Translations under genes and position numbers: made by a program
IMG/VR virus record: IMGVR_UViG_3300017697_000055
Span: 1-32,566 of that record
Source of the DNA: a virus
Direction: 5' to 3' (one strand)
DNA length: 32,566 nt
Shown: positions 1,033 to 17,850 of the stretch, piece by piece
How the letters are laid out: each line of letters starts with the position of its first letter
Position numbering within the stretch: the first letter of the stretch is position 1
The notes under the pieces: generated by a model
What the model was told of the DNA's origin: nothing
Seen by the model: only the letters and a program-made list of their open reading frames with translations
Databases searched by the model: none

Positions 1033-2913
1033 TTACCCCGCGTGTTGCATTTCTTTCAGGGACGCCGGACTGTCAACCATGTGTCCAGACTCTACATTCG
1101 TTGTGTTGTTGATAACCTTAGAATTGTTTACGGCAGTTACTTCTGCTGCTGGATCCTGTGTTGGTTGAATTGCATCTAAACGGCCTGCAAGATTAGCAGA
1201 AGTAGACATGTCTCTCGCCTTACCTACATTTCGAGTAGGTTCAGTCATCTTCCCGACAACCATTCCACCGACTCCAAGGGCCCCACTCTGCGCCACTTCA
1301 TTTATTGCAAAATCCATGAAACTGCTTCTTTCGCCCTGCATCTCTTCTGCTGACTTGTTCAGGTTGTCGAACAATGCTCCTTCACCTTTGATCAACCCCT
1401 GACGACGCAGTTCTTTTCTTGTCATTCCAATGTGAAGGCCCTTTGCCTTTGCTTGGTTTGTTTTCGCTAAGGCGATTGCAGAGTCAATGTCTATTTCTTC
1501 GGTGAATAGATCACTCACTGCTGTTGGACTGAACAGACCAAGACCATCTCGTACTGTCGTTGCAGTACCTTTACCACTTGCTTTTACTGCTTCCAGTCTT
1601 TGGACTTCGTTATTGAAATATTCTGTATCAGTGAATGATTCAGCATCCGTTGCATTCATTGGTGAATCTATAGACATCTGTTCTGGACTTAATTTATTAC
1701 CTTCGAAGTCTGCCATCGATTGTTGATCTTCGAGATCCCTTGCAGACATGGTCATCGTGCCTTCGGTTGTGTTCAATTCTCTTGATTGAACAAGCATTGC
1801 ATCGGCGGCATCGACACCTAGATTCTTGAATGTTCCTTGTCCCGGTAGGAAGAGATCAACCTTGTCACCACTTTCTCTTGCAGCATCTACCTTTGCTTGC
1901 TGCATTTCTAGAATTGTCCCGACACTATTGTCTTTGATGGCATCTTTATCTCTGAAGTCTTTGATGGCATCTTTACCCATTTTTGCTGATTGTTCTTCTA
2001 ATTCTCTGATCTCATCTTCGGTAGACTGACCCTCCAATATTTTCTTGACGATGAGTGAAATCCCCGCGATTCCTGCGGCAACGGCCAAAATTGGTGCGGC
2101 GAACGGAGCAATTGCTGTGATGATTCCACCAATAGCACTGACAATTCCCATGATGATAAACCTTGCAGCACCCATGAACGACTTGCCCATCCTAGCAAAA
2201 CCTGCTTTACTTGCTGCTACAGTTTTCTTGGTGCCACTAGTAATTGCTCTACCGATTATCTTAGATTGTACTCGGGCAAAACGCACCATTTTATTTCTGC
2301 TCTTTGATGATGCCATGTCACCACCCGAAGAGGCCTCGGTTTCTGGTGTGCTTGGGGTATCTTCTGTGTCTGGAGTCTTGTTTGCAAATCCAAACGGTGT
2401 GATGATCTTCGGCGGTGAATCCTTCTTGTTCTTGGGTGTGGATTTCATCGAATCCACTAGTTCGGAAACGCTATTTGCAATTCTCTCGACTGCATCTGCA
2501 ATTCGATCACTTGTACCGAATACGGAGTCTGAACTTTTTGATGTCATCGCCTTTACAACTTTTTTCTCTGGAGTATTACCCCTACTCTCGATCTCTTCCT
2601 TGATTTGTTTCTTCTGTTCTCTGTTCGATCTAGCGGTGCGAATGGCCTTACCGATTCCGCCTACAGCAGGTGCAATTCCTAATGTTCCAAAATTCACCGC
2701 TGTCCTAGCGATCTTTTTGGTTCGATCTGCAACTTTGGTTGCGGTGGGACCCAACATGCTGCCTGCAAGAACACCAGTGGCATATGAACTACCTACGTTC
2801 TGTGCCGTCGATTCCTGTCTAACCATTTGACGTATTGATGCACTTTGCTTCTGATCCTTGTGCATCGATTTTAGTTGTGTTACTACGTCTTTTAGTGTTG
2901 CTGCCTGGGCCAC
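1033..2913 (-). CDS. putative tail tape-measure or hub-associated virion protein
   Basis: 626 residues. The N-terminal half is basic and helical, then there is a Pro/Thr/Ser/Glu-rich linker (about 158-200), a long hydrophobic Ala/Gly/Ile segment (about 250-293) able to form one or two membrane helices, a charged helical stretch with a short tandem repeat (about 314-328), and an Asn/Thr-rich C-terminus (near NNTTNV). Length, helicity and a central hydrophobic segment fit a gp29-type tape measure (T4 gp29 is 590 residues), and it follows gp26 and the gp51-like gene in the tail-hub cluster. The GTG start at 2913 is supported by AGAGGA seven bases upstream; it begins one base after the upstream stop. 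A diverged structural protein of another kind is the alternative, since no diagnostic motif is visible. Confidence 0.5.
   Translation of the reverse strand: MAQAATLKDVVTQLKSMHKDQKQSASIRQMVRQESTAQNVGSSYATGVLAGSMLGPTATKVADRTKKIARTAVNFGTLGIAPAVGGIGKAIRTARSNREQKKQIKEEIESRGNTPEKKVVKAMTSKSSDSVFGTSDRIADAVERIANSVSELVDSMKSTPKNKKDSPPKIITPFGFANKTPDTEDTPSTPETEASSGGDMASSKSRNKMVRFARVQSKIIGRAITSGTKKTVAASKAGFARMGKSFMGAARFIIMGIVSAIGGIITAIAPFAAPILAVAAGIAGISLIVKKILEGQSTEDEIRELEEQSAKMGKDAIKDFRDKDAIKDNSVGTILEMQQAKVDAARESGDKVDLFLPGQGTFKNLGVDAADAMLVQSRELNTTEGTMTMSARDLEDQQSMADFEGNKLSPEQMSIDSPMNATDAESFTDTEYFNNEVQRLEAVKASGKGTATTVRDGLGLFSPTAVSDLFTEEIDIDSAIALAKTNQAKAKGLHIGMTRKELRRQGLIKGEGALFDNLNKSAEEMQGERSSFMDFAINEVAQSGALGVGGMVVGKMTEPTRNVGKARDMSTSANLAGRLDAIQPTQDPAAEVTAVNNSKVINNTTNVESGHMVDSPASLKEMQHAG
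1931..1975 (-). repeat. short tandem repeat, 27-bp period, in tape-measure-like gene
   Basis: An 18-base sequence occurs twice exactly (1931-1948 and 1958-1975) with a 9-base spacer. It encodes KDAIKD twice, nine residues apart, in a charged helical region. This looks like a recent in-frame duplication of a helical segment, a usual way for tape-measure proteins to change length. Confidence 0.75.
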
Positions 2914-2914
2914 T

Positions 2915-3091
2915 CTAGTATCCTCTTGTTTGTTCTTTCTCTTGTTCCTTTATTAAAGCAACAAGTAGTTGTATGTAAATCTCTCGTTCAAACGGAAACA
3001 TGTTTTCTAACTCTGCCAATGAGTATTTATGGTGATGCATTAATTGAAAATTAGTTTTGTAGTAATTTTCAAGTGATTCATGGCAGAGCAT
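2915..3091 (-). CDS. small baseplate hub assembly protein, gp51-like
   Basis: A 58-residue protein beginning MLCHESLENYYKTNFQ and ending KEQTRGY, too short for a usual ORF cut-off. Its ATG overlaps the stop of the gp26-like gene (TAATG at 3089-3093), and its stop lies one base before the next gene's GTG, so it is translationally coupled on both sides. The pattern of an aromatic/His-rich start followed by SLAELENMFPFEREIYIQLL is one I recall from short proteins next to gp26 in T4-like phages, some named baseplate hub assembly catalyst (gp51) and some only hypothetical. Translation and overlap are certain; the gp51 name is from memory of the family and its position beside gp26. Confidence 0.75.
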   Translation of the reverse strand: MLCHESLENYYKTNFQLMHHHKYSLAELENMFPFEREIYIQLLVALIKEQEKEQTRGY

Positions 3092-3795
3092 TAGACGAAA
3101 AAACCGTCTACACCTTCAATCTTAAATTCGTTTTCCTTTTTGCAGTTAGGACATATAAATTTTACTGGAATCTTCACCCTTGGTTTTGATTTGATGAACT
3201 CTAGGATTTGTGTAAAGGTATCACTTTCGAGGTTGTTAACAAACTCTTCAATTTCTTCTTTCTGATAGTCTGTTGCGTCGAAAACTTCATCATCCGAATA
3301 GATCTTATCAATCGAAGAACAAACAGAATCAAATACCATATCAACCTGATCCTGCATGGTGCTGTTTCTCAGTTCATCTGCAAACGAAGGGAATTTAAGA
3401 TCAATGATTATTGATTTATTTACTTTGATCCGATTATCTTTTTTCATGCTGTCGTCTATTACGAGATCATCTGTTTTTATGTTAACAGAACAACTGCTTT
3501 CGCAATGAATACACTGCAACTCTGGTTTCATCGTTTCACCAACAGACGATGCTCGTAGTTTGATCAATGCATATTCAGAATCGATGGACGTTGATTTAAA
3601 AATATCCAACTTTCCGTCTGTGCAAGAAAGAACTATATCATGAACTGCTTGGTAAATCGTATTCACATCACCAGATTCTGATGCAAGAAGCAAAACTTTC
3701 TCTTCCTTTACTCGAAAGGGTCTGTAATTGATCTTTCTTTTAGAATCTGGAAGTGTAAAACTATATGTGGGTGTCTCTACTGTTGGTAATGGCAT
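3091..3795 (-). CDS. 26: gp26-like baseplate hub subunit
   Basis: 234 residues, near T4 gp26 (208). It matches the T4 baseplate protein family (PF12322 type): an N-terminal signature around LPDSKRKINYRPFRVKEEK, a helical central part, and two cysteine clusters (LQCIHCESSC near 112-121 and FICPNCKKEN near 212-221) whose two CxxC pairs could form a zinc ribbon. In T4 gp26 acts in assembling the central hub. It lies between the gp54-like gene, 20 bases upstream with AAAGGA in the gap as ribosome binding site, and the gp51-like gene, whose start overlaps this stop. Function is assigned from family resemblance and position. Confidence 0.8.
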   Translation of the reverse strand: MPLPTVETPTYSFTLPDSKRKINYRPFRVKEEKVLLLASESGDVNTIYQAVHDIVLSCTDGKLDIFKSTSIDSEYALIKLRASSVGETMKPELQCIHCESSCSVNIKTDDLVIDDSMKKDNRIKVNKSIIIDLKFPSFADELRNSTMQDQVDMVFDSVCSSIDKIYSDDEVFDATDYQKEEIEEFVNNLESDTFTQILEFIKSKPRVKIPVKFICPNCKKENEFKIEGVDGFFV

Positions 3796-3815
3796 ATTGT
3801 ATTGTTCCTTTCACT

Positions 3816-4709
3816 TTATGCAAGTCCGAAATCACCACCGGGTATCTGGAAATCCACGCCGCGTAATGGACCGACTTCTCTCCCGATATCTGCTTCATTA
3901 GGTTGTTCTCTTCCAACCTGTCGTCTGTCAAATTGTCTTAGTATTGCTTGGTTTTGTAGATCATCATTATTTCCAACAGGAATTGGAATGATTATCCAAT
4001 CTCGATATGCAAATGTGACACTGAACGTGGCAATCTCATTTGCCTTTGCAAATCCGAGTGGGATACTGTCCATTGATTTTGGATATACCTCACGAACCTC
4101 GCATCTGTATAGCACGTTGCTTGATTTGTAGGTAGATACACCGGGAACGGCGTCTACATCTATTCCCTTGTCTAGTGCATCAATGTATAAGTTGCAAACG
4201 TAGTCATCGTAGTATTGCACATCATATCGAGTCCTTGGTGAAGAGATAAAATCCATCCACTCATCGATATATTTTGTCTCGGCAAAGTCACGACTTACCC
4301 GGAACGTCATTGTTAATTCACCGTTGAATTCTGCATCAATAACAGGTCTTCTTACTGGTCCATATGTCCGAACATCTGCTGTTCTAAAGTTTTTGCCGGG
4401 GAATGATATGTCGATACACTGGAACGTCAGCATATCTTGTGCTTCTCTACTTATGATTTGTTTATCAAAGGAGACATCATATCTTGATGGTGAGTATAAT
4501 CCTGTACTGTTTATTTTCTGGAAGAAATCCTGAATTGATTTTGATTGATTGAATGCACTTTTGCTGATTTGATTCCGATTAGACATTTCCTTTTCAGATC
4601 TTTTCAACATCTCAATAACAACATCTTCCGAAGAAGAACCAGTGGTGGAGTCGATTGGACTTACAGGAAGTGCGTGGTTTAATTGTTTTGCTTCTGATCT
4701 AGCAGACAT
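3816..4709 (-). CDS. gp54-like tail tube initiator (gp19-fold baseplate protein)
   Basis: 297 residues, near T4 gp54 (320). The central part (about 70-245) has tail-tube-fold features: strand-rich segments around FQCIDISFPGKNF, a TYGPVRRPV loop, ELTMTFRVSRDFAETKYIDEWMDF, and a closing ATFSVTFAYRDWI strand. The N-terminal 60 residues are helical and polar; the C-terminal 40 are low in structure. gp54 sits on the gp48 cap and starts tube polymerisation. Its start shares one base with the stop of the upstream gene (TGATG at 4707-4711). It is on the opposite strand from gp48, whereas in T4 genes 48 and 54 are adjacent and co-directional. A tube paralog (gp19-like) is the alternative. Confidence 0.65.
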   Translation of the reverse strand: MSARSEAKQLNHALPVSPIDSTTGSSSEDVVIEMLKRSEKEMSNRNQISKSAFNQSKSIQDFFQKINSTGLYSPSRYDVSFDKQIISREAQDMLTFQCIDISFPGKNFRTADVRTYGPVRRPVIDAEFNGELTMTFRVSRDFAETKYIDEWMDFISSPRTRYDVQYYDDYVCNLYIDALDKGIDVDAVPGVSTYKSSNVLYRCEVREVYPKSMDSIPLGFAKANEIATFSVTFAYRDWIIIPIPVGNNDDLQNQAILRQFDRRQVGREQPNEADIGREVGPLRGVDFQIPGGDFGLA

Positions 4710-5560
4710 CAGATTTCTCCTCTTCGTTGTGCGATTGTTCTTCTACTGTCGGTCCAAACATTATACTTCGACGTTTTCTTAAATCTCTCCAGAGGAAGTT
4801 GTATTGCAATTGGCCAATCCTCTGCTGGTATTTTCAACATTCTGGAGTTGATTCTCTTCATAGAATAAACTCTATAACATGGTCTAAAGTATTTATACCG
4901 ATTCGATGCCTTTAATATACTAATATCAAGTTTACCCAGGCGTGCTTCTGTTCCGATACCAGTTCTGAGTTGTTGTAGGTTCATGAAAAATATAGTCCTG
5001 ATTTTGGGTGGCAGATAGTGCAGATTTAGTCCATGTAACTTACCCGGTTCAACCTTTACCAAATAAATCAGAGGGAAAGTATCATAGAATTCTAGTTTTG
5101 ATCTGGTTCTGGGTTCGTAGTTGAACATGAACATCTCACCGGGACGCTTGAAACCTGATGTAGATATGAGACGCTTTTCATCTCGAAGGAATCTCTCTTC
5201 CACTGATAGATCTGCATCCTCATATAATTGACTGATTGCAAGTTCCATCCACTTCAATGCTGCTTCGCCATCGGTTGGTGCGTTTACAGCGTCACGAACT
5301 TCTTTAATCGCATCGAATACGTTCAGTTTTAGATCAGTGTAGTCTAATTTAGAAATTCCTTTGATTAGATCTCGTTGATTTATTTTTTCTTCTACTTCTT
5401 TTTCTGACTTTGGTCTAGTGAACTCTGCGGCCTCATACAGCATTCTGTTTTTTGGTGCAGGAACATCGGGTTCGGATCTGAGTGCAGAACTTATTTCTCT
5501 AAGGTCTTTTGCAATAGATTTGAACATCTCCGATCTTCGATTTTTTCTATTTTCGCTCAC
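4709..5560 (-). CDS. probable gp2-like DNA end protector / head completion protein
   Basis: 283 residues, matching T4 gp2 in length (274). The N-terminal half is charged and helical; the C-terminal half from about residue 140 has conserved-looking segments around PGEMFMFNYEPR, FYDTFPLIYLV, GLNLHYLPPKIR and a final VWTDSRR. I recall this HYLPP-containing domain from T4-like phage proteins annotated as DNA end protector, next to gp4 as here; gp2 caps genome ends and blocks RecBCD. The start is GTG at 5560, overlapping the gp4 stop by GTGA, with AGAGG about ten bases upstream. The family name rests on memory and synteny, so an uncharacterised structural protein remains possible. Confidence 0.55.
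   Translation of the reverse strand: MSENRKNRRSEMFKSIAKDLREISSALRSEPDVPAPKNRMLYEAAEFTRPKSEKEVEEKINQRDLIKGISKLDYTDLKLNVFDAIKEVRDAVNAPTDGEAALKWMELAISQLYEDADLSVEERFLRDEKRLISTSGFKRPGEMFMFNYEPRTRSKLEFYDTFPLIYLVKVEPGKLHGLNLHYLPPKIRTIFFMNLQQLRTGIGTEARLGKLDISILKASNRYKYFRPCYRVYSMKRINSRMLKIPAEDWPIAIQLPLERFKKTSKYNVWTDSRRTIAQRRGEI
4890..4897 (-). promoter_or_regulatory. possible T4-type late promoter inside gp2-like gene
   Basis: Exact TATAAATA octamer on the minus strand (TATTTATA on plus), about 180 bases upstream of the gp54-like start. It lies in coding sequence (codons for RYKYF), so it may be chance; if used it would give a late transcript for gp54-like, gp26 and downstream genes. Confidence 0.3.
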
Positions 5561-9885: not shown

Positions 9886-11091
9886 ATGGAAACATTTTTT
9901 GGAAAACAGGGATTCGTTTGGTGGCAAGGTGTTGTAGAGGATATTGGTGATCCTTTAAAACTCGGTAGATGTCGCGTGCGTATTTTTGGTTTCCATGTTC
10001 CAGATAAAAACAAAATCAAGACCGAAGATTTACCGTGGGCATACCCGGTACAACCCATCACTAGTGCTGCTTTATGTGGCATAGGTGAGTCCCCCACTGG
10101 GTTGTTACCGGGATCCCCCGTTTTCGGTTTCTTCCGTGACGGCGATGACGCCCAGCAACCTATCATGTTGGGTTCGATTCCCGGAATACCACAAAATCCA
10201 TCAAATCCAAATGAAGGATTTAGTGATCCGAGTGGTATCCTTCCATTCGAAACGTCGAAGCACGGACACTCTCAGGTTGGAGAGCAGGACGTAAGTAGAC
10301 TTGCAAGAAATGAGAACGTAAACGATACTGCGATTGGTAAGAAGGCGCAAGACACTTATTATCAAGGTGTTCCGACTGCGAATAGTTCTGGTGGCAATTG
10401 GAACGAACCACAATCACCATACTTCGCAATCTATCCGTTCAATCATGTCAAGGAAACTCTATCAGGACACATCCAAGAATTCGATGACACTCCCGGCGCA
10501 GAGAGAATCCACACCTACCACAAATCAGGAACCTTCAATGAGATCCACCCAGAAGGCACAGAAGTGCATAAGGTTGTTTCTGATAAGTACGAACTGATTG
10601 CGGGAGATGAATATGTTCATGTTCAAGGAAACGTAAACCTAATCGTTGGTGGTAAAGGTGAAGGTGAAAAGGACAGCAACATCACTATACTCGTTCGCGG
10701 AAACGCAGGACTTGAAGTGGGTGGAAACGTCTTCGGTAACATCAAGGGAGACGCAACTCTTCAGATAGAAAAGAGTCTAAATGCAGAAGTCAAGAGCAAC
10801 ATGACTATCGGCGTAAAGGGTTCTACTGTGATAAATACTGCTGGTGACACCGAGATAACATCGAAGGGTAAACTTAAACTCTCCGGTGATGCAGGTGTGG
10901 AACTGACATCATCAATGGGCGAAGTAAACATGAACTCGGCAACTGCATCTGTAAATATTACAGCAGCAACGACGGCAATGTTCCAGACGATCAGTGGTGG
11001 TATTGAAATTATGGCGCAGGGCGCTGCTTCAACGGGGAAGTGGGACGCAAGTGGAATTAAATTTAACGCAGCATCGATTGATCTAAACTAA
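9886..11091 (+). CDS. 5: gp5-like central spike protein lacking lysozyme domain
   Basis: 401 residues against 575 in T4. Residues about 10-115 form the OB-fold domain (WWQGVVEDIGDPLKLGRCRV, then GLLPGSPVFGFFRDGD and QQPIMLGSIPG). A polar linker follows, then from about 190 the C-terminal spike: FNEIHPEGTEVHKVVSDKYE and serial short strands (VNLIVGGKGEGE, GNAGLEVGGNVFGNIKGDA, GDTEITSKGKLKLSGDAG) typical of a triple-stranded beta-helix. In T4 a lysozyme domain sits between OB-fold and helix; here no lysozyme-like sequence or room for one is present. The protein is expected to trimerise with the gp27-like hub and carry the PAAR tip. Its stop overlaps the next start (TAATG). Confidence 0.85.
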   Translation: METFFGKQGFVWWQGVVEDIGDPLKLGRCRVRIFGFHVPDKNKIKTEDLPWAYPVQPITSAALCGIGESPTGLLPGSPVFGFFRDGDDAQQPIMLGSIPGIPQNPSNPNEGFSDPSGILPFETSKHGHSQVGEQDVSRLARNENVNDTAIGKKAQDTYYQGVPTANSSGGNWNEPQSPYFAIYPFNHVKETLSGHIQEFDDTPGAERIHTYHKSGTFNEIHPEGTEVHKVVSDKYELIAGDEYVHVQGNVNLIVGGKGEGEKDSNITILVRGNAGLEVGGNVFGNIKGDATLQIEKSLNAEVKSNMTIGVKGSTVINTAGDTEITSKGKLKLSGDAGVELTSSMGEVNMNSATASVNITAATTAMFQTISGGIEIMAQGAASTGKWDASGIKFNAASIDLN

Positions 11092-13823
11092 TGCCAGCAG
11101 ACAGACCAAATACAATTACAATACACTTAAACTCCAACGATTCTGAGTGGTTTCCTGAAGGATCGGCGGGTTGGGACACTCGCTTTGGTGTGGGATGTGA
11201 AGACAATACAAGACAAGATTCTGTTCCACTTGTTGGTGAACTAGGAGAATTGCCATGGTCTCCTCGCACAACTGGTCCACCCAATAATTTTATTCAACCG
11301 ATTACACAGATGACTGGTGTTCGTTTTGAACCACTTGACGGAAACAATATTCCAAACTTCCTAGTACCATTCTATGATTGGGGTGTTCGTGCTGCTTGGT
11401 TCGGAAAGGCCCAGCAGGAAGATCGCCTCTCGTTCGGGGATTACTTTGAACTGTTATTTGATACTCCAGAAGCAAGACAATCTTTCATTGAGGTTTTTGG
11501 AACTGACGTAAAAATGACAAGGACAGGAAAGGATTCTACAGATCCCGACAATCCAATCATCATCTTCGAGGAGAGACAATATACAATCAATCGATCCGAC
11601 TCTCAAATGGAAAGTAATACTACTACATGGGGAGAACAGACTTTTTACATGTTGTCTTGGAAGGATGCTCCCGCCGAGATCGAGACGAATCCACCAACAC
11701 CGACTATTATTTCAGATACAGTTGATCTTCGACTTGTTCCACAAGTATCAACAATCATTGATATTGAATTTATAAATGCGACTGACGTTATTGATATCAT
11801 GGGAACATGTGATACCCAAAACATAAATCCATGTGATCCAGTTGCTCCACCAGAATGTAATAATGACGGAGATTGTACTTCATGTAATTCTAAATGTATC
11901 TCAGGGACTTGTATATGTGAAGACTGCCCTTGTAACAGTGTGTGTCTTGATGTGGATATGGCGGGGGTCCCCAGTCAAACCATTGGAGTACGAGAACTTA
12001 TTGACGGTGATCAAGAAAATTGTGTAGATTGTGTCCATCCAGTGTTCGGGTCCGTCTTCTGTAATTGTCTGCCGGCGATCGATGGTGGTATATGCCGACT
12101 GGCAAGGGATCAAGAGGATGGGACTAATTGTGATTGCAAGGTAGGTCATGTTTGTTGTGAAAACTTTATTAACGGAGTTAGTGACTCCTTTAACTGCTGC
12201 AATGCACAGGAATTCGGTGCCAACGGGCCAGGGAACATAGTACAAAGGTGTATTGATGGATTTGGTTGTGCCCAATCTGCTTGTGAGGTGGATGCAGATT
12301 GTGGCAATGAATGCACAGAATGCAGTCTAAACGAAAATGGTGTGGGTACATGCACACCGAAAGACAACGAAACTTCATGTGGAACTGATGGGTTAAATTG
12401 CACATGGTGTCAAAATGGGGAGTGTGTAGACAACCCCACAACTGATAACTGTAATTGTCCCGGACAGGAATGTGATCCCGGATTTGACTGTTGTCCCGGT
12501 GGGTTCTGCTGTCCTTCAGAATTCGGATGTGGTGAGGGTAGTGGTTGTGATCAGTGTGATTCAGACGGCGATTGTCCACCGTGTGAAGAATGTAGTCAAA
12601 TACCAGGCGGAAATAGGTGTACGGTAACTGACTGTGATCCTTGTTTTACCCGCGAAGAACCTGATTGTGAATGTAACATTCCGGTTTGCCGAAACTGTGA
12701 AGAGTGTACCAGTTCTGGGGATAATCATTTTTGCGTTGAAAATTGTCCAGTATGTTCTAGTTGTGATGGAGATGGTAATTGTTCAGATCCACCTTTTTGT
12801 CCGACCGGAACAACGCTAAACCCATCCACATGTCTATGTGATGATAACTGTGAGGATTGTCAAATCTGGAATGGTTTAGTGTGTGAGACTGACGAAACTA
12901 TATGTGGTTGTTGTGATACTTGTCTTCCAATCCCCGGAACTGTGTTTTCTGAATGTACATCTTCCAACAATAATAACTGCCCTAACGGACAATTTTGTGT
13001 AGATTGTCAATGTCAAGATCCCGGATGTCCGGTTGCTTGTACTGGTTGTCTGGTGTGTGATCTTTCACAAGGAACTGGAGTCGGGTTTTGTAATACACCC
13101 CAGAACATGGGATTACCAGATCCATGTAATGGTACATGTCAAGAGTGTGAATTCTTAGACTTTCTTAATGGTATTGGTCAATGTGGGAACTCGACTTGTG
13201 ACGGAGACTGTTGTGATGATGGATCGTGTTGCTCGGCAGGAAACAAGTGCTGTGATGACTTTACCGACAACTCAATTTATTGTTGCGTCGAGGACGAAGT
13301 ATGTTGTGGAGATGGAACCTGTTGTCCGAACGGACAAATATGCTGCGAAGGAAGTTGCTGTGATCCTGACGCATGTGAAAGTTGTGTACCGGGAGTTGGT
13401 TGTGTAGAATGTGCTGACACTCCGTGTGGTAGTTGTGTGGGTGGATCCTGTGTGGGTGGATGTCCGGACTGTAAATTCTGTCAGGGTGGAGATTGCGTAC
13501 CGGATCCGACTAGATTATGTGATCCGACTTGTCCATTCAACTGGTGTGACGAAAATAATTGTACACCTGCCCCATCGTGTGAGTCGGAGTGTCAATGTTC
13601 GGGACAGAGTAATGAACCATGCACATGCTTTCAAGGCGCACCGCTCTTCGCGTTGATGGATTGTATCTGTGGTGAGGATCCACCAGAGGAAACACCCGGT
13701 GCATGTTGTTCACCGTTTGGTCTGTGTTCCCAAAGGACACCAGAGGATTGTGCCCGGATCGGGCACACCTTCAGAGGCGGCCGATGTAACCCCAATCCTT
13801 GTTCTCTCCCCGGTAGTGGTTGA
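11091..13823 (+). CDS. giant cysteine-rich virion-associated protein with granulin-like segment
   Basis: 910 residues, no family recognised for the whole protein. Residues 1-239 have a single cysteine and look like an ordinary soluble or virion-anchoring domain. From residue 240 to the end, about 128 cysteines occur by hand count, roughly one in five residues, in small knots rich in Gly, Asp, Asn and Pro. Around residues 705-760 eight CC pairs follow each other with spacings near those of granulin repeats (CC-x9-CC-x5-CC-x4-CC-x5-CC in part, including CCPNGQICC). The C-terminal 42 residues form a separate module, GACCSPFGLCSQRTPEDC. There is no signal peptide. It is coupled to gp5 by TAATG and precedes fibre genes, so a baseplate appendage or adhesin is most likely. 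Confidence 0.7.
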   Translation: MPADRPNTITIHLNSNDSEWFPEGSAGWDTRFGVGCEDNTRQDSVPLVGELGELPWSPRTTGPPNNFIQPITQMTGVRFEPLDGNNIPNFLVPFYDWGVRAAWFGKAQQEDRLSFGDYFELLFDTPEARQSFIEVFGTDVKMTRTGKDSTDPDNPIIIFEERQYTINRSDSQMESNTTTWGEQTFYMLSWKDAPAEIETNPPTPTIISDTVDLRLVPQVSTIIDIEFINATDVIDIMGTCDTQNINPCDPVAPPECNNDGDCTSCNSKCISGTCICEDCPCNSVCLDVDMAGVPSQTIGVRELIDGDQENCVDCVHPVFGSVFCNCLPAIDGGICRLARDQEDGTNCDCKVGHVCCENFINGVSDSFNCCNAQEFGANGPGNIVQRCIDGFGCAQSACEVDADCGNECTECSLNENGVGTCTPKDNETSCGTDGLNCTWCQNGECVDNPTTDNCNCPGQECDPGFDCCPGGFCCPSEFGCGEGSGCDQCDSDGDCPPCEECSQIPGGNRCTVTDCDPCFTREEPDCECNIPVCRNCEECTSSGDNHFCVENCPVCSSCDGDGNCSDPPFCPTGTTLNPSTCLCDDNCEDCQIWNGLVCETDETICGCCDTCLPIPGTVFSECTSSNNNNCPNGQFCVDCQCQDPGCPVACTGCLVCDLSQGTGVGFCNTPQNMGLPDPCNGTCQECEFLDFLNGIGQCGNSTCDGDCCDDGSCCSAGNKCCDDFTDNSIYCCVEDEVCCGDGTCCPNGQICCEGSCCDPDACESCVPGVGCVECADTPCGSCVGGSCVGGCPDCKFCQGGDCVPDPTRLCDPTCPFNWCDENNCTPAPSCESECQCSGQSNEPCTCFQGAPLFALMDCICGEDPPEETPGACCSPFGLCSQRTPEDCARIGHTFRGGRCNPNPCSLPGSG

Positions 13824-13835
13824 TCATTGATTTTA

Positions 13836-13842
13836 CTAAATA
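13836..13842 (+). promoter_or_regulatory. weak late-promoter-like site upstream of 286-residue gene
   Basis: CTAAATA lies in the 57-base gap between the cysteine-rich gene and the next one, 38 bases before the ATG. It differs from the T4 late octamer at the first two positions of TATAAATA, so it is only a candidate. Confidence 0.25.
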
Positions 13843-13880: not shown

Positions 13881-14741
13881 ATGGCCAGTATAAATCAAAA
13901 CTACGCAAATCTGTTGACACTTAGATTTTATAATGCCCTGTATGCACCTCCAGTAGTCAAACCTTCTGAATTACCGAATCTATCTGTATTTTCAAAGAAA
14001 TCTGCGACAAAAGGACCGGTTAGTTGTTCTGGTAAATGTTTACAAACTAAATTGTCTAAGATTGACATTACAATTAAATTTACGGAAGATTCGTTTGGTG
14101 ACGAAACAACATCACTACAAGAATATAAAAGATGTCTCAATGCGGTTGTAACTTCTACTATTAATGAAGAAGAAACTAGCGAGTGTTTTACTGCTGCTGA
14201 CTATGCATCCGCGTTAGATCGATACGGGTTAGGAGATGGAAATCCTTATCGTGCGTTTGCACTTGTTCCTTCTACTAATTCGACTGATTCAGTTACCTTG
14301 TCGGGAGAATCATTTATTATTCGTGATGCAGGATCGTGTGACTATTGTCTTCACGCAAATAAATTATGCACATCAACAAAGAATAGATCCTATACCCAAA
14401 CACATAAAGTGTGTCAAAATAGAATCGGAAAAATATCGTCATCTCCTGGTCCAAATTTTCCAAATGTTTCCCCGGAAATTCAGGAGTTTCGGTCCGGTGG
14501 ATATGACACATCTTGGATTTTTAGGGAGGCCCTCCTTGGGTTTGTAAACTCTGGTGGTTTACAATTTGAAACTAATTGTGGATGCGAAGAAACACCTCCA
14601 ACTAAACCTGTAGGTAACGTAAGTTCATTAGAATCTTCAATGACAAACACCCTTTCTGGAAGAACAACCATATCTACTCAGGGTACACAACCATCACGAT
14701 CCGTTTCTACAAGATCGACTTCGGGTGGTGGATCATACTGA
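13881..14741 (+). CDS. hypothetical virion protein with ten cysteines
   Basis: 286 residues, family not recognised. Ten cysteines are spread along it, including SCSGKC near 48-53, the CDYCLHANKLC cluster near 153-163, and NCGC near 232. The last 50 residues are Ser/Thr/Gly-rich with no charge clusters, like an exposed linker or glycine-serine tail. GAGGA lies five bases before the ATG. It sits between the cysteine-rich protein and the collagen-like fibre, so it is plausibly a partner or connector in the same appendage, but no direct evidence shows a role. Confidence 0.65.
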   Translation: MASINQNYANLLTLRFYNALYAPPVVKPSELPNLSVFSKKSATKGPVSCSGKCLQTKLSKIDITIKFTEDSFGDETTSLQEYKRCLNAVVTSTINEEETSECFTAADYASALDRYGLGDGNPYRAFALVPSTNSTDSVTLSGESFIIRDAGSCDYCLHANKLCTSTKNRSYTQTHKVCQNRIGKISSSPGPNFPNVSPEIQEFRSGGYDTSWIFREALLGFVNSGGLQFETNCGCEETPPTKPVGNVSSLESSMTNTLSGRTTISTQGTQPSRSVSTRSTSGGGSY

Positions 14742-14756
14742 GAATGGTGGTGAACT

Positions 14757-16817
14757 ATGTCCGATGAATTAAATGACTACCAACGAGCGACAGATCCGGA
14801 TGTTGATAACGAAGAAGATCTGTATCAAGATACTCAGGAAGATGCACCGGAAAAATCTATCGAAGACAGACAGGGTAATATAGAATTACCGACTGGATCT
14901 GGTTTATCTATATCTAGCACTTCGATCGATGGGGGAAACGTAAATAATAAACCAAAGGGTGGTCCCCGGAAGTTTTCGAAAACTGAATCAATAGGTAAAA
15001 AGCAAACAGAGTCTTTTGATCTCAAGTCGTTCGCTGTTGATATACCCGAAGATTCCCGACCAGTTATAACTCAAGAAGATGCAGAAGTCCCACTCAGATC
15101 TGGTGCAACCGGATCTCGGGGCCCAGCAGGTTCACAGGGTCCTCGCGGCCCACAAGGTAGACAGGGTGAAATGGGACCGTGTTGTACTGGACCAGATCTT
15201 AATGTAGATGACACGGGACTTACCTTATATGGGTTGACGTTAGGTATAGATCCAGACGCGATCGTTGCAGTTGCCGGAATTTCTGTTGGTTCGATCACTG
15301 CTGATATATTACATGTCGCAGATCAAATAAAATTTCCTAATGGTATGACTGCTGCGTCCGTCGTTACTACGGTGAATGGCGTATCTGGTGATGTTACACT
15401 AACCGATCTCGTTGGTGTCGCTACATTCAATGGTGCTGCTGGAGATGTCCAAGGTGTATCAACTGTCAACGGAGCAACGGGTGATGTTACACTTACTGAT
15501 CTTGTTGGTGTCGCTACATTCAACGGAGCAACAGGCGGAATAACAAGTAGCAACCTTATCCTACACGTTGCAGGACTTTCATCAGACGGCGGTATTACTG
15601 TCGGTAGTGACATACAATTTGGTGGTAATCATAGTATTTTAAATTCGTCTGGTGATTCTATTTTTAAGGCAGATGTCGGCACAAACGTAAGGATTGGAGA
15701 TTTGGACGGTGTAGGAAATAGTAACACTATTTTTGTTAGAGATAGCCATGATGTAATTACATTGAACAGCACCACCATCAGTACCAATGCGGATATCGTC
15801 TCTCTCAACGCGGCCACGGTGAAACTCCCGGATGAATTACAACACAGCGGTGATGAAGACACAAAACTTTCATTCCCGAGTGCAGATAATTTAGTTCTGA
15901 TGGCGGGTGGTGTTACGTTCGCACACGGAACCGCGACTGGTCTTTATGCTCCAGCAGGATTATCTGCTGATGGTGGTGTAACATTCGGATCAATCAACTC
16001 CGCCGGCGCACTTCAGGTAGATGGTAACATACACACAGACGGAGGAATCTCAGCGGACGGTGGTATCAGTGGTGGGCATGTTCATTGTGCAACACTGACA
16101 TCAGACGGCACCTCAACTGTGGGTGGAGTTATCATGAGTGGTGGTGTGATGGTAGGAACCGCAACCAACTCACTTGCATGTTCTGGTGCGGCCGCAACGG
16201 CGACGACTGCTGCTCAAGTGCAATTGCAAGGGAAAAGTGATGATAATGATTATAATATCATTTTTGCAGATCATGCTCAGGGGGCGGCAACAGCAAATCT
16301 TGCAGCAAAGGTAGACAGCGGCACTGGTGCTGATGGGTTGATCTACAATCCCGGCACCGATCTACTTTCGCTTGGTGGCATTTCTGCTGGTAGTGGTGTT
16401 ACTTTAAACGCAGGACTTCACGTTACTGGTGGATCTACTTTCGGAAGTGCGATAAACTTCCAAGATAACCAACTCGAAAGACCCAAGTTCAAGGACTACG
16501 CAGAAACTGTAAATGCAATCGGAACAATCACTGGTAATACTGCGATTGATTTCTCTGCCGGTAATGTGCAGACTGTAACCGGAAACGGAAACTGTGAATT
16601 TAGTTTCACGAATCCACCAGCAACTGGCAATGCAGGAACCCTCACACTCCTGATCACAAACGGTGGTGCAAACACAACAACTTGGGCATCAGCAGTCAAG
16701 TGGCCCGGTAATGTTGCACCAACACTCACGGCATCCGGTATCGACATTCTATCGTTCGTCACAATAGACGCCGGATCAAACATCTATGGATTTGTAGGTG
16801 GAATTAACTTCTCATGA
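14757..16817 (+). CDS. collagen-like trimeric tail fibre
   Basis: 686 residues. An acidic polar N-terminus (1-115) leads to nine Gly-X-Y triplets (residues 116-142) ending in GPCC. A 31-residue repeat occurs twice at about 206 and 237 (VNG-x-GDVTLTDLVGVATFNG), and later come repeated strands such as GLSADGGVTFGS, GGISADGGISGG and AGLSSDGGITVGS, which suggest a beta-helical or stacked trimeric shaft. The final 85 residues (CEFSFTNPPATGNAGTL, TTTWASAVKWPG, GIDILSFVTIDAG, YGFVGGINFS) resemble the C-terminal domain of marine phage tail fibres I recall from cyanophages. It is probably a trimeric receptor-binding fibre. Its stop overlaps the next start as ATGA. Confidence 0.8.
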   Translation: MSDELNDYQRATDPDVDNEEDLYQDTQEDAPEKSIEDRQGNIELPTGSGLSISSTSIDGGNVNNKPKGGPRKFSKTESIGKKQTESFDLKSFAVDIPEDSRPVITQEDAEVPLRSGATGSRGPAGSQGPRGPQGRQGEMGPCCTGPDLNVDDTGLTLYGLTLGIDPDAIVAVAGISVGSITADILHVADQIKFPNGMTAASVVTTVNGVSGDVTLTDLVGVATFNGAAGDVQGVSTVNGATGDVTLTDLVGVATFNGATGGITSSNLILHVAGLSSDGGITVGSDIQFGGNHSILNSSGDSIFKADVGTNVRIGDLDGVGNSNTIFVRDSHDVITLNSTTISTNADIVSLNAATVKLPDELQHSGDEDTKLSFPSADNLVLMAGGVTFAHGTATGLYAPAGLSADGGVTFGSINSAGALQVDGNIHTDGGISADGGISGGHVHCATLTSDGTSTVGGVIMSGGVMVGTATNSLACSGAAATATTAAQVQLQGKSDDNDYNIIFADHAQGAATANLAAKVDSGTGADGLIYNPGTDLLSLGGISAGSGVTLNAGLHVTGGSTFGSAINFQDNQLERPKFKDYAETVNAIGTITGNTAIDFSAGNVQTVTGNGNCEFSFTNPPATGNAGTLTLLITNGGANTTTWASAVKWPGNVAPTLTASGIDILSFVTIDAGSNIYGFVGGINFS
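15372..15536 (+). repeat. 93-bp tandem repeat in tail fibre gene
   Basis: Two copies of about 72 bases begin at 15372 and 15465 (period 93 bases, 31 residues). The stretch around GTTGGTGTCGCTACATTCAA is identical in both copies, while surrounding bases differ mostly at third codon positions, so selection keeps the protein repeat. It encodes the VNG-x-GDVTLTDLVG motif of the fibre shaft. Confidence 0.85.
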
Positions 16818-17551
16818 TTGGTGCAAGTAGAGCAGCAAGCGGAAGAGCATATCAAGTATTGAGTACCACGAACATCACTTCGACAGGCACTCAAACATAT
16901 ACCATACCTTCCGGAGTTGTTTTCATCGAAGTCGAGATGTATGGTGGTGGAGGCGGCGGTGGAGTTGGGTCAGTCGCCGGTGGTAGAGGTGGATCGTCAC
17001 ACACCAACGGTCAAGGCGGTGGTGGTGGTGCATATGTCAAACACCAAATTCGAATAACAGATCTTCGTAAAGATGACACTTTAACTTTTACGGTAGGTGC
17101 AGGTGGTGCAAAGGGCGCAAATGCATCGTCTATGGGAAGTGATGGAGGAGACACACAACTCACTTTACACAAAAGAAGTAGTAGCACAATCACCACATTC
17201 AGTGATATCATAGCAGGTGGTGGTGAGGGTGGAAGAAGTGCAACTGCCTTCGGTGGTGGTCTTCGAGGTGAAGGCGGTGTTGCACAAAATGGAAATTTAG
17301 TAAACACGGACGGTGGAGATGCTACAAATAGAACTTTTGGTTCTGGTACTGCCATAGCAGGAACTGATGGTGGTGATGGTGCAAATCCCGATGGTGGTAA
17401 TGGTGGTGGTGCTGGAACTGAAGGCGCACTTGGTTCTGCTGCTGCGGTAGGACAGGTTCCCGGTGGTGGTGGTGGAGGTGGTGCTTCAGAAAACAACACT
17501 GCGGCCAATGATGGTGGTGCTGGAAAAGTAATCGTAAAGGCGTTTGGTTGA
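16814..17551 (+). CDS. glycine-rich adhesin, probable fibre tip
   Basis: 245 residues. The N-terminal part (YTIPSGVVFIEVEMYGGGGGGG) is the start of a glycine-rich domain I recall in phage tail fibre ends; glycine runs then recur throughout (GGRGGSSHTNGQGGGGGAY, AGGGEGGRSATAFGGGLRGE, DGGDGANPDGGNGGG) and the protein closes with GGAGKVIVKAFG. Such polyglycine layers form the receptor-binding tips of some T4-like adhesins (as in the S16 gp38). It overlaps the fibre gene by ATGA, so it is co-translated and probably caps or chaperones that fibre. The glycine loops are expected to vary with host. A large frame on the opposite strand (17011-17508) is only the mirror of the GGT/GGC repeats. Confidence 0.7.
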   Translation: MIGASRAASGRAYQVLSTTNITSTGTQTYTIPSGVVFIEVEMYGGGGGGGVGSVAGGRGGSSHTNGQGGGGGAYVKHQIRITDLRKDDTLTFTVGAGGAKGANASSMGSDGGDTQLTLHKRSSSTITTFSDIIAGGGEGGRSATAFGGGLRGEGGVAQNGNLVNTDGGDATNRTFGSGTAIAGTDGGDGANPDGGNGGGAGTEGALGSAAAVGQVPGGGGGGGASENNTAANDGGAGKVIVKAFG

Positions 17552-17577: not shown

Positions 17578-17850
17578 ATGCCAGGAATATCAAGAGTCGG
17601 AATGGACACGGCCGGAAATACAATCTTAACAGGAAACTCAAACGTCAAGGTGAACGGAATGCCTGTTGCACACATTGGGAGTTTGATTGCAAATCACTGC
17701 GGCGGAGATTGTCCTAACCAACACACTGCCCCCGTTATAGTGACGGGATCTGGTATGGTTAGAGTCGGCGGAATACCAGTATGTCGTGCAGGTGATGCCG
17801 CATCATGTGGACACTCAGCAACAGGTTCAGGAAATGTGAGGGCCGGATAA
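17578..17850 (+). CDS. 5.4: PAAR-domain spike tip protein (gp5.4-like)
   Basis: 90 residues, the size of T4 gp5.4. The PAAR repeats are visible as VKVNGMPVAHIGS and VRVGGIPVCRAGD, with His/Cys residues (AHIG, NHCGGDC, GIPVCRAG, SCGH) suited to binding a metal at the cone tip. PAAR proteins cap the gp5 beta-helix and sharpen the spike that pierces the outer membrane. GGAGGAG lies just upstream and a perfect late octamer precedes it. Its stop overlaps the next start by TAATG. The placement after the fibres, not directly after gp5, shows how the accessory genes are inserted in the hub cluster. Confidence 0.9.
   Translation: MPGISRVGMDTAGNTILTGNSNVKVNGMPVAHIGSLIANHCGGDCPNQHTAPVIVTGSGMVRVGGIPVCRAGDAASCGHSATGSGNVRAG

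Follow-up and report, generated by a model that had tools for sequence, protein, structure and literature searches.

A protein with 129 cysteines encoded directly behind gp5 in a T4-like phage, a candidate tail appendage

In Agrobacterium phage Milano, a myophage, the tail, baseplate and receptor-binding proteins are linked by disulfides, some of which must break for contraction, according to its published description (PMC10811340). The structural proteins contain 2.1% cysteine, and the main text of the paper, in which the word "cytoplasm" is absent, thus gives no account of how the bonds form in the cell (PMC10811340). In gene order, the locus described here can be compared with that of Vibrio phage D479, which ranked first among phages by its gp5 (40% identity over 95%). 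Its tube cap, wedge, tail protein and gp5 genes, followed by PAAR and a wedge, stand in the order shared with our locus, but one 166-aa gene of dissimilar sequence lies between gp5 and PAAR where our locus carries a cassette headed by an extremely cysteine-rich protein. Since D479 has only this single gene in the interval, the cysteine cassette looks added. Milano is a precedent for the disulfides that we propose for this protein, differing in that its cysteines are scattered (2.1%; PMC10811340), whereas the protein has a 671-residue region at 19% cysteine.

The window, i.e. the whole stretch of DNA that was analyzed, is a virus record of 32,566 bases. T4-like PHROG matches in its upstream part include a baseplate hub, tail tube, DNA end protector, head closure and tail tube cap protein, followed by a baseplate wedge, a tail protein and gp5, while a tail fibre, a fibre-assembly-like protein, PAAR and a baseplate wedge protein were matched downstream of the cassette. 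The resulting order is tube cap, wedge, tail protein, gp5, cysteine-rich protein, a 286-aa protein, tail fibre, fibre-assembly-like protein and PAAR. We presume that the tube cap and the wedge correspond to T4 gp48 and gp53, and the number gp25 is presumed likewise. Judged by its homologs of gp5, tube cap, wedge, PAAR and the major head protein, the window derives from a T4-like myovirus. The major head protein (gp23), taken from a 128-kb contig holding a nearly identical copy of the cysteine-rich protein, shares 57% identity with its counterpart in cyanophage S-SCSM1 and 56% with the one in pelagiphage HTVC008M. A scan of 107 kb turned up no tRNA.

The gp5-like baseplate hub/spike protein (401 aa, 9886..11091, plus strand) matched PHROG 430 at E 3e-99 and Pfam Gp5_OB at 8.5e-27, and its match to Gp5_trimer_C (2.4e-06, 28.1 bits) lies under the cut-off of 30.9; alongside these OB and C-terminal trimerisation domains, Pfam gave no match to a lysozyme domain in it. 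Behind the cysteine-rich gene, the cassette continues on the plus strand with the 286-aa protein (13881..14741), which has 10 cysteines and for which family searches gave nothing below E 0.28. Then come the tail fibre (686 aa, 14757..16817, plus strand; PHROG 9017, tail fiber, 3.4e-11), the tail-fibre-assembly/minor-tail-like protein (245 aa, 16814..17551, plus strand; PHROG 863, 1.8e-18) and the PAAR spike-tip protein (17578..17850, plus strand; PHROG 281, 3.4e-17). Collagen-like Gly-X-Y triplets run for a short distance in the tail fibre, at about residues 116-140 (Pfam Collagen 0.0044, below cut-off).

The cysteine-rich gene itself (11091..13823, plus strand) starts with ATG and encodes 910 amino acids with 129 cysteines and a pI of 4.05. 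The ATG shares one base with the gp5 stop codon TAA (11089-11091) in a CTAATG junction (11088..11093, plus strand); this junction, CTAAACTAATG (TAATG, a one-base stop/start overlap), is identical in the window and in two diverged loci, L008 and L010, introduced below. The first-pass annotation had put the gene directly behind the gp5 spike gene, in full agreement with this overlap inside the baseplate and tail-fibre gene block. A CTAAATA motif at 13836 was dismissed as no more than chance.

The cysteines are distributed very unevenly. Residues 1-239 (11091..11807, plus strand) have a single one, C36, and residues 240-910 (11808..13820, plus strand) have 128, or 19.1%, against a baseline of 1.1% (394 of 34,718 residues in 93 ORFs of the longest contig of the same phage group). 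The earlier estimate of about 128 cysteines, roughly one residue in five from residue 240, is thereby confirmed, position 11808 being the codon of residue 240. The 671-residue region is acidic, with 108 Asp and Glu against 17 Lys and Arg, and contains 4 His. No hydrophobic stretch was found at the N-terminus, and the protein therefore carries no sign of export. Adjacent cysteines (CC pairs) are not a general feature: the region has 14 of them, fewer than in composition shuffles (mean 24.2, sd 4.0), 4990 of 5000 of which had at least 14. Enriched across the region are cysteines spaced by 2, 4 and 5 residues (24, 18 and 17 versus 16.0, 10.5 and 8.5 in shuffles), so the ladder of CC pairs considered below is a local feature.

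Full-length copies at 99.7-99.8% identity were present in three IMG/VR contigs, and a fourth contig has the first 89 residues. A search based on gp5 led to the two diverged loci, each with a full-length homolog behind gp5: L008 (10156-13296; 1046 aa, 151 cysteines) and L010 (7075-9855; 926 aa, 123 cysteines). With three near-identical contigs and two diverged full-length homologs, the protein is not an artefact of a single assembly. Scans with alignments of the protein, of gp5 and of the N-terminal domain added no further gene versions, and a genome scan with the homolog alignment (A1) returned 45 pattern matches, none of which was confirmed. Nothing comparable to the gene is present at L023, a more distant gp5 locus; the proteins behind gp5 in D479 and in L023 were considered as relatives and found to be unrelated.

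No match was obtained for the cysteine-rich protein in PHROGs, Pfam or NCBIfam. None of the families named for comparison in the first-pass annotation (granulin, EGF, TIL and metallothionein) matched, as Pfam-A returned nothing at E ≤ 0.1 when queried with the whole protein and nothing at E ≤ 10 with six fragments, in searches whose HMMER filters may hide weak matches of cysteine-rich sequences. The N-terminal domain had no Pfam match, no PHROG better than E 0.1 and no PDB match, and a PDB sequence search with the whole protein and with the A1 profile gave nothing. In tblastn against 50,697 phage records, run with the low-complexity filter on, the whole protein had no match and the L010 homolog none at E up to 10; the N-terminal 240 residues had one hit at chance level (E 0.8). 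A "virion protein" of cyanophage S-SCSM1 (517 aa, 19 cysteines in frame) was dropped as unlike the cysteine-rich protein. Among the open-access papers listed, we found neither a cysteine-rich phage tail protein of comparable design nor a granulin-like fold in a phage protein. The place of the protein fits a phage tail appendage, and its design is unlike that of any member found in families, structures, named phages and the papers listed, in keeping with the earlier remark that no phage protein of such design had been described.

Eight of the 14 CC pairs, at residues 707, 713, 720, 731, 738, 744, 751 and 756 (nucleotides 13209-13361), form a ladder (residues 705-758; 13203..13364, plus strand) with gaps of 4-5-9-5-4-5-3 between pairs. 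These are the eight pairs that the first-pass annotation had located at about 13205-13375, and their gaps contain its CC-x9-CC-x5-CC-x4-CC-x5-CC pattern. The AlphaFold model of the full-length protein was poor (mean pLDDT 36), with ten-residue blocks reaching 60 only at 131-140 and 701-760, and the PDB structures matched to it (at best TRAF domains, Z 3.5) were set aside. Modelled alone, the fragment 697-796 reached pLDDT 72.6; within its residues 1-60, the block values were 71-90. The many small knots proposed earlier thus found a model in the ladder only, while the rest of the protein has no confident one.

The granulin framework consists of 12 cysteines with four central CC pairs. When the ladder model was compared with 36 chains by VIA-align, a single one, zebrafish granulin AaE (6cku), reached Z ≥ 2; its Z of 4.5 (rmsd 2.6 Å, 53 of 56 residues aligned, 34% identity) lies in a range that, as VIA-align warns, can reflect merely a common arrangement. 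Foldseek placed human granulin A third, at a non-significant E of 4.6. Sequence searches with three related queries gave weak matches to granulin-5 (E 0.24, 0.37 and 0.12); four spider-toxin chains (best E 0.0063) ranked above it in the first search and one snake protein (E 0.18) in the second, and it was the sole match in the third. In the weak phmmer alignment at E 0.24, all 12 cysteines of the aligned granulin-5 stretch meet cysteines. The Pfam granulin profile, PF00396, matched none of five records at E ≤ 10, in a search in which the control genomes never passed the cut-off either; with fragments, the window and L008 proteins were not matched at all, and L010 scored 7.7 bits against a cut-off of 20.9. 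The model of residues 705-758 suggests a hairpin stack like that of the granulin domain (PF00396; PDB 6cku, 2jyt), but the ladder needs one-residue gaps at CC steps and continues on both sides. The granulin-like spacing that had been pointed out is therefore retained for the modelled fold and for the cysteine correspondence within a non-significant alignment, and not at the Pfam threshold. As modelled, the ladder may have a granulin-like fold, reached by convergence or remote descent; this reading is based on the model, and we do not claim membership in the family.

Other large cysteine-rich proteins were found in viral contigs. A DNA scan for the CC ladder gave at least 120 stretches and is no census, since the known contigs of the cysteine-rich family were absent among the matches listed. 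Among the same matches, 44 ORFs had the peptide pattern: one, in L034, encodes a natural-looking large cysteine-rich protein; another, in L079, encodes a protein of 154 aa that is plausible as a membrane protein and differs in kind; and the remaining ones look like low-complexity or antisense frames. A genome scan for the ladder gave at least 118 stretches with 73 ORFs among them, the best 25 of which look low-complexity. The L034 protein (1095-5459 on a 165-kb viral contig; 1454 aa, 281 cysteines) is, like the window protein, large, cysteine-rich, viral and equipped with a CC ladder. It matched STIG1 (PF04885) at 6.9e-40, above cut-off, with 13 STIG1 stretches, as well as the MXAN_6577-like family NF041328, whereas the window, L008 and L010 proteins matched neither. 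A single pairwise BLASTP comparison of the L034 and window proteins gave E 0.017 over the ladder, and homology is not established, the profile score of 24.3 being reached by 4 of 20 shuffles with fixed cysteines. The L034 protein had no match in named phages, and a search without a positive control found no gp5 relative in its contig.

A contig of the same phage, G001:C1, encodes a second cysteine-rich protein on the minus strand (74026-77064, equivalent to L027:14026-17064; 1012 aa, 55 cysteines). Residues 561-812 hold 44 of its cysteines, and by eye the remainder resembles a beta-helix tail protein. It had no PHROG match and none in the 50,697 phage records (tblastn, E up to 0.001). Homology of its insert is not established: the score of 20.8 (19 columns) was reached by 1 of 60 shuffles with fixed cysteines and 4 of 60 full shuffles, and a smaller control had 0 of 20 shuffles above it. 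Large cysteine-rich proteins thus occur in viral contigs more than once, with no established homology among them. At about 30000-44000, G001:C1 also has a run of apparent sugar-nucleotide and glycosyl-transfer genes, as judged by eye from protein starts.

We then compared divergence along the block. By tblastn, gp5 is 96% and 92% identical to its counterparts in L008 and L010, and identity drops sharply at the boundary with the next gene, to 40% and 46% for the cysteine-rich protein (48% and 51% in alignment A1; 51% and 56% for residues 1-239). Its divergence lies far above that of gp5. It is not the sole variable gene: the 286-aa protein diverges even more (26% and 35% by tblastn, 31% and 40% in the alignment), the tail fibre is 62% and 42% identical over the parts present (partial in L010), the tail tube 47% and 52%, the tube cap 61% and 53%, and a 626-aa protein encoded beside conserved genes (1033-2913, minus strand), which has no PHROG match, 32% in L008. 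Only the 286-aa gene in both loci, the 626-aa gene in L008 and the partial tail fibre in L010 fall below the cysteine-rich protein. Jumps in divergence at gene boundaries are common for host-contact genes, but divergence alone is no marker of host contact, as other genes of the block vary too. Among the near-identical contigs, the cysteine-rich gene has four amino-acid changes (N85T, P328A, D760A, L878V), none at a cysteine and too few for a claim of positive selection. This strain comparison omits 30 differences in a 987-aa gene of L001, which are located where the contig ends and suggest a frame slip, and makes no synonymous/non-synonymous distinction for minus-strand genes.

Within this divergence, the cysteines are retained. 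Between the window and L008, 126 of 129 cysteines are kept, against 300 of 750 other residues (40%); for L010, the figures are 115 of 129 and 326 of 739 (44%). In sequence, then, the cysteines are conserved above the background, in a comparison that, like that of parity, is based on three gene versions. All three have even totals in the cysteine-rich region (128, 148 and 122 in the window, L008 and L010) and odd totals in the whole protein (129, 151 and 123). C36, the lone N-terminal cysteine of the window protein, is invariant and would be left without a partner if every other cysteine paired inside the region. In L008, an extra pair of cysteines, at residues 112 and 120 of that protein, lies in the N-terminal domain, and the three cysteine-bearing insertions in the cysteine-rich region hold 4, 6 and 8 cysteines. 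Against L010, five of six cysteine-bearing indels have a single cysteine, several of them looking by eye like alignment shifts, and one cysteine is lost from each of four ladder pairs; these single-cysteine indels do not support parity. With three sequences only, parity is no settled test of pairing. The neighbouring 286-aa protein has 10 cysteines in the window and 12 in each of the two other loci.

On the basis of its place among tail genes, the conserved one-base overlap with gp5, the divergence jump and the retention of cysteines, we consider with moderate confidence that the protein is a tail appendage of a T4-like phage, in which a docking domain would carry a variable, disulfide-built arm that contacts the host. 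A covalent staple or armour would also account for the odd totals in all three homologs together with one invariant N-terminal cysteine: the protein would sit in the baseplate or tail tip and stabilise it through inter-chain disulfides, with C36 as the link and no role in host binding. The disulfide-linked tail of Milano is a precedent for it, but its cysteines are scattered (2.1%; PMC10811340) and form no domain at 19%. An internal staple should, moreover, evolve slowly, and the cysteine-rich gene ranks with the block's most divergent ones. We regard such a staple as unlikely.

We rate lower still, as quite doubtful, a metal-binding protein, either a metal store or a metal-folded arm, whose cysteines would hold Zn, Fe-S or other metals. 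Metal would solve the problem of folding in a reducing cytoplasm, the protein has 25 CxxC motifs, which are common in metal sites, and the single-cysteine indels of L010 are unlike strict pairing. Against this, the cysteines gained in L008 came as a lone pair and in blocks of 4, 6 and 8, the 671 residues have only 4 His, no family, metal-binding ones included, was matched, and the granulin-like ladder, if modelled correctly, would be a disulfide fold. On these few events, disulfides probably fit better than metal. Least probable is a non-virion protein, a soluble decoy, inhibitor or host-takeover factor freed at lysis and lying behind gp5 by chance: granulin-like and other cysteine-rich modules usually occur in secreted proteins and the N-terminal region has no known tail-binding domain, but the gene lies inside the tail cassette, overlaps gp5 in all three versions and encodes no signal-like N-terminus.

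For the tail appendage, we propose the following mechanism. Residues 1-239 would be the docking domain, attaching to the baseplate or tail tip, and residues 240-910 an acidic arm of small cysteine-knotted modules, with one granulin-like hairpin stack at 705-758. The chain would be made reduced in the host cytoplasm and then joined to the tail, and its cysteines would form about 64 disulfides when the particle, freed by lysis, meets oxygenated water. Pairing, if any, would most simply take place after lysis, and oxidation at this stage might fail if the host is anaerobic. The first-pass annotation had offered three ways out for a protein assembled in reducing cytoplasm, namely folding only after lysis, holding metal or relying on a special chaperone; given the lack of a hydrophobic N-terminus, we favour the first. 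Two contigs, each of which may be incomplete, contained no match to the thioredoxin or Evr1/Alr families, in a search whose Evr1/Alr control gave a signal in only 1 of 14 genomes, below the cut-off. A disulfide scaffold would replace the hydrophobic core and leave the surface between cysteines free to change, which would suit contact with a changing host surface, either in attachment or in receptor recognition.

We tentatively take this one step further, to a redox-triggered tail adhesin: an arm of about 70 kDa with about 64 disulfides, including a granulin-like domain, that would be unfolded in the cell and adhesive only outside. If true, such an adhesin would define a new class of host-contact proteins in phages, in which cysteine scaffolds replace beta-helices and trimeric fibres. 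If the protein is in the virion, the phage manages to fold a domain of 128 cysteines without exporting it, and variable surface loops are borne by a disulfide scaffold, which as a design is known best among secreted proteins. The timing of disulfide formation in phage particles could then be tested directly, and the protein may be a source of very stable small binding modules.
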